A DNA stretch of 64,000 nucleotides from Phycisphaerae bacterium (GTDB lineage: Bacteria; Planctomycetota; Phycisphaerae; SM23-33): contig JAGXKT010000001.1 of assembly GCA_018335035.1 (NCBI GenBank), positions 1 to 64,000 of the forward strand, written 5' to 3'. The translations under genes and the position numbers were made by a program. Below are positions 46,179 through 47,820 of this stretch, piece by piece; positions within the stretch are counted from its first letter, which is position 1, and every line of letters begins with the position of its first letter. The notes under the pieces were generated by a model. The model did no database searches. It was not told the DNA's origin and was given only the letters and a program-made list of their open reading frames with translations.

Positions 46179-46268
46179 GTCGATACGTGCGGCCGGCCGG
46201 GCAACGGTCGGCTGTCGCATTTTCCGTTGCGCCTTGACCGGTTGGCGGGTTGCGCCTACCATAACACA

Positions 46269-46407
46269 TGCATTGAGAGTGCGCGAGGGTTCTGGCCCGA
46301 TGACCGCACGGCAACCTGCCCCGGCGGCACGTCCGCGCCGGGGGAAGGTGCCGCAGCCAGCCCCGTCCGGCGGAGCGAACTCCGCAGGGCGTGCAGGGAC
46401 CGATGCG
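46269..46407 (+). ncRNA. SAM-I/SAM-IV-clan S-adenosylmethionine riboswitch
   Basis: P1 TGCATTG/CGATGCG; P2 GTGCG (46279-83)/CGCAC (46305-09); CTGGCCCGATGA core; P3 GGCAACC...GGTGCC with CCCCGGCG/CGCCGGGG extension; pseudoknot CTGG (46292-95)/CCAG (46357-60); P4 GCGGAG-CGAA-CTCCGC; followed by metY. Confidence 0.88.
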
Positions 46408-46512
46408 GCCCGGAAGGGCAAACCGTTCCCTGAGTCCAGACGCGCAGGGCGCTTCTGCGCGCCGCGCGCCATCTCTCAATGCCGCAAGCGACGCGGTCGA
46501 AAGGAATAACTC

Positions 46513-47820
46513 ATGACGAACGATTATCGCCTGGCCACCAAGGCCCTGCACGCCGGGTACGACCCGCCGACGCCCTCGCGTCCGGCGGCCGTGCCCGTCT
46601 ACGCCACCAGCAGCTATCTCTTCGACGATACCCAGCACGCGGCCGACCTGTTCGCGCTGCGCCGCTTCGGCGACATCTACTCCCGCCTGGGCAACCCCAC
46701 GGTCGACGTGCTGGAGAAGCGTCTGGCCGCACTGGACGGCGGACTGGCGGGGGTGGGGTTCGCTTCCGGGATGGCCGCCATCCACGCGACCGTCATGACG
46801 CTCGCCTCGGCGGGCGAGAACATCGTCACTTCGCGGAGCTTGTACGGCGGCACGTGGACGCTGTTTTCGCAGACGCTCGCCAGGCAGGGCATCGAGGCCC
46901 GCTCGTTCGACCCGCTCGAACCGCAGCGGATCGCGGAGCTGGCTGACGCAAACACGCGGCTGGTCTACGTCGAGACCATCGGCAACCCGAAGAACGATGT
47001 GCCGGACTTCGAGCGGATCGCCGCGACTGCCCGCGAACTGGGTCTGCCGCTGGTCGTGGACAACACCGTCGCCACGCCCGCGCTGTTTCGCCCGCTGGAC
47101 CACGGTGCGGACATCGTGGTCTACTCGACCACGAAGTTCCTCGGCGGTCACGGTGTACACGTTGGCGGAGCGGTCGTCGACGGGGCCACGTTCGACTGGA
47201 CCGCGGCACCGGATCGCTGGGCGCAGTTCTGCCGTCCGGACGAGGCCTATCACGGAGTCGTCTTCACCGAGGCGCTGCGCGACGTGGGTAACGTCGCCTT
47301 CGCCGTACACATGCGAACCCACTGGCTGCGCGATGCCGGGGCGTGCATGAGCCCGTATGCGGCGCACCTGTTCCTGCTCGGGCTGGAGACGCTGCACGTC
47401 CGTATGCCGCGGCACTGCGCCAACGCACAGGGCCTGGCCGAATGGCTTGCCGAGCACCCGAATGTCGAATGGGTCAACTACCCCGGCCTGGACGATCACC
47501 CTTGCCGTGCCAACGCGCGGAAGTACCTGCCCGACGGGGCCGGGGCGATCATCGGCTTCGGCATTCGCGGCGGGCGGGACGCCGGCGAGCGCTTCATCAA
47601 CTGCGTGCGCCTGGCGCGGCACCTGGCCAACATCGGCGACGCCAAGACGCTGGTGATCCATCCGGCGTCGACGACGCATCAGCAGCTCACCGACGACGAG
47701 CAGCGAGCGGCCGGCGTCTCGCCGGAGTACATCCGCCTGTCGGTGGGCATCGAGGACATCGAGGACATCCGTGCCGATCTCGACCAGGCCCTGCGGGCGG
47801 CGGGAGAATCGATCCAATGA
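46513..47820 (+). CDS. metY: O-acetylhomoserine aminocarboxypropyltransferase (PLP-dependent Cys/Met metabolism family)
   Basis: LATKALHAGYDPPTPSRPAAVPVYATSSYLFDDTQHAADLF, YSRLGNPTVDVLEKRLAALDGGL, DIVVYSTTKFLGGHGVHVGGAVVDG. Confidence 0.94.
   Translation: MTNDYRLATKALHAGYDPPTPSRPAAVPVYATSSYLFDDTQHAADLFALRRFGDIYSRLGNPTVDVLEKRLAALDGGLAGVGFASGMAAIHATVMTLASAGENIVTSRSLYGGTWTLFSQTLARQGIEARSFDPLEPQRIAELADANTRLVYVETIGNPKNDVPDFERIAATARELGLPLVVDNTVATPALFRPLDHGADIVVYSTTKFLGGHGVHVGGAVVDGATFDWTAAPDRWAQFCRPDEAYHGVVFTEALRDVGNVAFAVHMRTHWLRDAGACMSPYAAHLFLLGLETLHVRMPRHCANAQGLAEWLAEHPNVEWVNYPGLDDHPCRANARKYLPDGAGAIIGFGIRGGRDAGERFINCVRLARHLANIGDAKTLVIHPASTTHQQLTDDEQRAAGVSPEYIRLSVGIEDIEDIRADLDQALRAAGESIQ

Follow-up and report, generated by a model that had tools for sequence, protein, structure and literature searches.

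The RNAs closest to the one described here belong to the SAM riboswitch clan: SAM-I (the S-box; Rfam RF00162), SAM-IV (RF00634) and the SAM-I/IV variant (RF01725). By cryo-EM, SAM-IV consists of P1, P2a, P2b, PK-1 and P3, followed after P1 by P5 and a PK-2 strand, and is without P4; SAM-I/IV RNAs have P4 and are without PK-1 (PMC6890682). The SAM-I riboswitch of Xanthomonas campestris, which has been tested experimentally, also senses uncharged initiator tRNA (PMC7270179). Among the papers searched, we found nothing relevant on SAM-I riboswitches of Planctomycetota.

Here we describe a leader RNA encoded in a 64,000-nucleotide stretch of a Phycisphaerae genome (the window, to which all positions refer). 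It is a SAM-I riboswitch of a familiar kind with an ordinary function and, judging from the sequence, it very probably controls a metY-metXW operon. It and its relatives form a SAM-I variant with P5, a conserved extra hairpin that the standard class model leaves out. It resembles SAM-I in its P1, its P2 with internal loop, PK-1, the P3 core GGCAACC/AAGGUGCC, P4 and its place upstream of methionine genes; it differs in that P1 has only 5-6 bp, that a P5 hairpin begins one nucleotide further on and is followed by AA, and that P3 and P4 carry inserts. With SAM-IV it has in common the SAM core, PK-1 and a short P1 followed by a P5 hairpin, but it has the P4 that SAM-IV is without, while PK-2, which SAM-IV has (PMC6890682), is unsupported and the class model does not match. 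With SAM-I/IV it shares the SAM core and P4, but it has both PK-1 and the P2 internal loop, which that class lacks, and again the class model does not match. Like the X. campestris riboswitch (PMC7270179) it lies upstream of a met operon, and the translational platform of that system has a counterpart in the window which is only predicted.

Results

The Rfam SAM model RF00162 aligned from end to end at the locus (model 1-108 of 108; 37.6 bits, E 5.3e-7 in the 501 nt searched), and over the whole genome it gave E 7.1e-7 at this locus, the sole significant match there. A preliminary description of the sequence had recognised a SAM-clan riboswitch, with the core GGCAACC...GGUGCC, P1, P2, an extended P3 and a CUGG/CCAG pseudoknot; all of these are present where it placed them and, with such an E value, lie far beyond chance, so that the Rfam SAM search that it proposed is significant, though below the gathering cut-off. 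That cut-off, 44.4 bits for RF00162, is a search threshold and not a structural feature; because the window match falls under it, a default Rfam scan of the window reported nothing. As far as the alignment shows, the shortfall is due to the long P3 and P4 inserts. The ligand core, the P2 internal loop, PK-1 and P4 are all intact in the window aptamer, and relatives with the same core exceed 44.4 bits; default Rfam cut-offs overlook functional-looking SAM-I riboswitches that have long inserts. The minimum-energy fold is ordinary for GC-rich sequence (z -0.49 for the aptamer, z -2.0 for the whole leader), and on the former value folding energy was dropped as evidence for the aptamer; that evidence is homology. 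The features of the locus are collected in Table 1.

Table 1. Features of the metY-metXW leader and operon, in window coordinates.
Feature	Position	Strand	Basis
sigma70-like promoter, TTGACC-17 nt-TACCAT	46234..46262	+	1 found against a shuffle mean of 0.0
SAM-I aptamer	46267..46409	+	RF00162 match, model 1-108
P1	46270-46275 GCAUUG with 46401-46406 CGAUGC	+	sequence; alignment helix 1
P2: GUGCG 46279-46283 / CGCAC 46305-46309, plus GGG/CCC	46279..46309	+	RF00162 match, covariation
Kink-turn-side AGAG and loop CUGG of P2	within 46279..46309	+	
PK-1 pseudoknot	CUGG 46292-46295 with CCAG 46357-46360	+	covariation in relatives
P3	46310..46352	+	SAM core GGCAACC...AAGGUGCC; extended tip CCCCGGCG/CGCCGGGG
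P4 base CCC/GGG	46361-46363/46396-46398 (P4 46361..46398)	+	as in relatives with CCC-GAAA-GGG
Hairpin inserted in P4, including GCGGAG-CGAA-CUCCGC 46370-46385	about 46364-46391	+	
P5, GCCC-GGAA-GGGC, one nucleotide 3′ of P1	46408..46419	+	fixed register; covariation in relatives
Conserved AA directly 3′ of P5	46420..46421	+	conservation in relatives
Candidate switch element CGUUCCCUGAGU	46424..46435	+	predicted from folding only; not conserved
Putative anti-P1 element; CUCUCAAUGC 46473-46482 is the perfect 10-bp complement of GCAUUGAGAG 46270-46279	46463..46482	+	
metY Shine-Dalgarno sequence, AAAGGA	46500..46505	+	sequence
metY, O-acetylhomoserine aminocarboxypropyltransferase, 435 aa	46513..47820	+	TIGR01326
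metX-metW fusion, 596 aa	47817..49607	+	start overlaps metY stop (ATGA)

Covariation supports the helices: taken together, 95.9% of cells are paired (89.9% in shuffles) and 56 are doubly changed (16.9 in shuffles). In the alignment of the order, PK-1, which joins the P2 loop to J3/4, has 99.1% of its cells paired, with compensatory change in two pairs, and its pairing is kept in relatives through G-C to A-U and C-G to A-U changes; the P4 base CCC/GGG, situated between P3 and the P1 3′ strand, is paired in 92.6% of cells. The GCGGAG-CGAA-CUCCGC hairpin, previously taken for P4, is present and does pair, but it is an insert in P4, and inserts of a similar kind occur in four relatives (L010, L021, L025 and L026). 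The strands of the P3 helix in the window are 46319-46326 and 46336-46343. P3 length varies freely among the relatives, which removes the extended P3 as the sign of SAM-IV that it had been thought to be.

The elements listed in the preliminary description are thus there, but the list had missed two more, namely the hairpin that follows P1 and a complement of P1 close to metY. In the order P1 is short (5-6 bp) and is followed, after one nucleotide, by a strongly covarying P5 hairpin and by an AA that is nearly invariant. P5 begins at a fixed offset of 6 from the P1 3′ strand GAUGYG, with AA after it: at this offset 23 of the 27 loci of the order carry a helix of 4 bp or more that runs up to AA, against only 0-4 of 27 at the eleven other offsets in the range 2-13. 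Each of the five P5 pairs shows changes on both sides in the trimmed alignment (A1), where 92.5% of cells are paired, and RNAalifold recovers the helix unprompted. The combined p of 2e-20 for P5 is not a true probability: the scan picks the 3′ arm for each sequence by its best pairing beside AA, the alignment was made from sequences with loops already trimmed, and these sequences are related to one another.

Outside the order P5-AA is sporadic and not universal. Class-mates with a classic P1 (UUAUC/GAUAA) are without P5 (offset 6 in 2 of 28, against 0-2 at other offsets). The arrangement recurs with quite different pairs in other Planctomycetota families (L127 GCCCGC/GCGGGC, L132 GCCU/AGGC, L155 GCUU/AAGC, L165 ACCGG/CCGGU, L166 GGCGGUUC/GAACCGUC) and in Chloroflexota (L179 CCGCGG/CCGCGG, L182 GCUC/GAGC, L183 UCGCUU/AAGCGA, L193 UCACGGC/GCCGUGA). 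In a pooled scan offset 6 leads in other Planctomycetota (5/19, with L155 misanchored) and in Chloroflexota (5/15), frequencies that are biased upward because these loci were found with a P5-containing model; it is empty in the Bacillota sampled (0/14). Nearly all loci found with the P5 model outside the order also match RF00162 above cut-off.

Within the order, sampled as the 38 genomes in our collection, 26 have a SAM-I match, which is above cut-off in 24; the other 12, including all four of genus g22, have none at E up to 0.1. In the class sample 85 of 299 genomes have SAM-I above cut-off. Two further Planctomycetota SAM-I matches just below cut-off (L143 1501-1616 and L146 1501-1612) are apparently without P4, the PK-1 3′ strand running almost directly into the P1 3′ strand; they score as SAM-I, not SAM-IV.

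At each locus of the order with a gene traced, that gene is metY or metX and lies downstream of the aptamer, mostly at 100-250 nt and at up to about 450 nt; in the window the distance to metY is 104 nt, close to the 105 nt first estimated. Transcription from the window promoter is expected to start at about 46268-46270, the 5′ strand of P1. Most loci of the order likewise have a TTGAC-type promoter right before the aptamer, with the expected start at the P1 5′ strand, and relatives keep the TTGAC and a -10-like element at the same distance. The downstream genes bear out their first naming as metY and a metX-metW fusion: the O-acetylhomoserine sulfhydrylase encoded by metY is full-length (TIGR01326, 609.6 bits; cut-off 495.1), and the metY TGA overlaps the ATG of the fusion, in which both parts are complete, MetX (NF001209, 480 bits) as well as MetW (TIGR02081, 227.3 bits). 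Several relatives' matches pass the MetX/MetW border (residue 403) before the locus ends, and for this reason the fusion is probably shared with them; among the papers searched, nothing relevant on MetX-MetW fusions was found. The gene context (metY, metX-metW) points to an RNA that would bind SAM and repress sulfur-metabolism genes.

The window leader has no terminator-like site, in line with the lack of an obvious T-tract reported before. In six relatives (L010, L012, L021, L022, L023 and L030) a terminator, hairpin plus U-tract, lies between aptamer and gene. The expression platform is therefore variable within the order, whereas P5 is retained; terminators of this kind are present at many SAM-I loci in other families of the class as well. 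In the window the perfect complement of the P1 5′ strand and J1/2 sits 17 nt before the Shine-Dalgarno sequence, where it can sequester the P1 5′ strand, and 46463-46469 can carry the pairing on into the P2 5′ strand. A 10-bp complement was reached in 37 of 20000 dinucleotide shuffles of the window, and the whole duplex has z -3.4. This anti-P1 pairing is strong in the window (10 bp), L006 (9 bp) and L014 (8 bp); across the order it is not significant (combined p 0.15), and as an order-wide feature it was rejected.

The candidate switch element has two possible partners, the 3′ strands of P4 and P1 (46394-46402) and the start-codon region (46509-46522). When the aptamer and P1 are forced to form, it pairs over the start codon, including ACUCA, in a fold about 8 kcal/mol less stable than the unconstrained one, a gap which ligand binding could cover. 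Modelled accessibility of the start region in the window falls from 0.67 to 0.59. The average change across 21 relatives, -0.048, is not clearly different from the -0.021 of shuffled controls, and start occlusion was rejected as a general mechanism on these values. The translational platform proposed at the outset thus stays plausible, with no terminator in the leader, but the modelling lends it little.

Discussion

We assign the RNA to SAM-I and not to SAM-IV because RF00162 matches it and neither the SAM-IV nor the SAM-I/IV model does, and because its relatives in the order share the core, PK-1, P4 and the promoter at P1. The preliminary description had leaned towards a SAM-IV-like or intermediate form, and one feature does point toward SAM-IV; it is not the long P3 but the P5 hairpin after a short P1, where SAM-IV has its own P5 (PMC6890682). 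That the RNA is a SAM-IV or SAM-I/IV-variant riboswitch nevertheless appears very improbable. At E up to 10, RF00634 has no match at the locus and RF01725 none in the genome; P4, absent from SAM-IV, and PK-1, absent from SAM-I/IV (PMC6890682), are both present. PK-2, between the P3 apical loop and the strand after P5, pairs no better than permuted partners from other species (p 0.27 for Watson-Crick pairs, 0.22 with GU pairs) and was rejected on this test; duplex energies with the whole of P3 gave p 0.03-0.04, which is not robust and is not confirmed by the permutations. Membership of SAM-IV was therefore rejected (no RF00634 match, P4 present, PK-2 unsupported), as was membership of the SAM-I/IV variant (no RF01725 match, PK-1 and the P2 internal loop present); with the PK-2 test negative, P5 is one SAM-IV-like feature and not a mark of membership. 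One part of the SAM clan has, side by side, features by which SAM-I and SAM-IV have until now been told apart. A score of 37.6 bits against a cut-off of 44.4 might also suggest a decayed, non-functional SAM-I leader, a reading that we find scarcely credible, as the core, PK-1 and P5 are intact, the deficit comes from the lengths of the P3 and P4 inserts, and a covariance model of the clade gives 79.8 bits (E 2.8e-16), the window being itself among that model's 27 training sequences.

Granted a SAM-I riboswitch, the P5-AA element may be read in two ways. It could be a working part of the aptamer in a distinct, widespread SAM-I subtype of Planctomycetota and Chloroflexota with PK-1, P4 and P5-AA, a reading that is possible but on the unlikely side; or it could be a spacer hairpin of the expression platform, separating P1 from the switch elements and not belonging to the folded aptamer, which we regard as a serious possibility short of an even chance. 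The spacer fits with P5 lying outside P1, and with the platforms of other SAM-I riboswitches, which also contain hairpins, numbered P5-P7 (PMC7270179); yet a spacer would need neither a fixed register to P1, which P5 keeps across terminator and non-terminator platforms alike, nor the near-invariant AA. Were the subtype reading true, SAM-IV-type RNAs could have had this architecture as their starting point, with P4 lost and PK-2 gained, and if P5-AA helps SAM binding it would offer a natural experiment on swaps of peripheral helices around a fixed ligand pocket. The terminators of the six relatives and of many SAM-I loci in the class bear on the output as well, since the same aptamer might in the window act through transcription termination, Rho-dependent or at a non-canonical terminator. 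This we consider doubtful: the leader has no terminator-like site and, being GC-rich and strongly structured, would probably make a poor loading site for Rho.

We therefore return to a SAM-I riboswitch whose output, there being no intrinsic terminator in the window, is most likely at translation initiation, a view that we hold with moderate confidence. The metY-metXW mRNA would begin with the riboswitch. Under abundant SAM the ligand would bind the conserved core and P1 would close, P5 probably stacking beneath it, and expression of the operon would be turned down; in this SAM-bound fold 46424-46435 would probably occlude the start region 46509-46522, the exact pairing between the two being modelled and put forward tentatively. 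When SAM is scarce, the P1 5′ strand and J1/2 would pair with 46473-46482 instead, and the operon would be expressed.

The window is in this respect unlike the usual S-box arrangement, as seen at two classic SAM-I loci of the class (L107 and L112), where the terminator 5′ arm repeats the P1 5′ strand (CUUCUUAUC). A different arrangement was noticed in three of the terminator-bearing relatives (L012, L021 and L030), in which the P4 tetraloop and 3′ strand, GCAAGG, are complementary to the terminator loop CCUUGC; a fourth, L010, has by eye a compensating change in this pairing, which from its sequence might be an antiterminator that uses P4 rather than P1.
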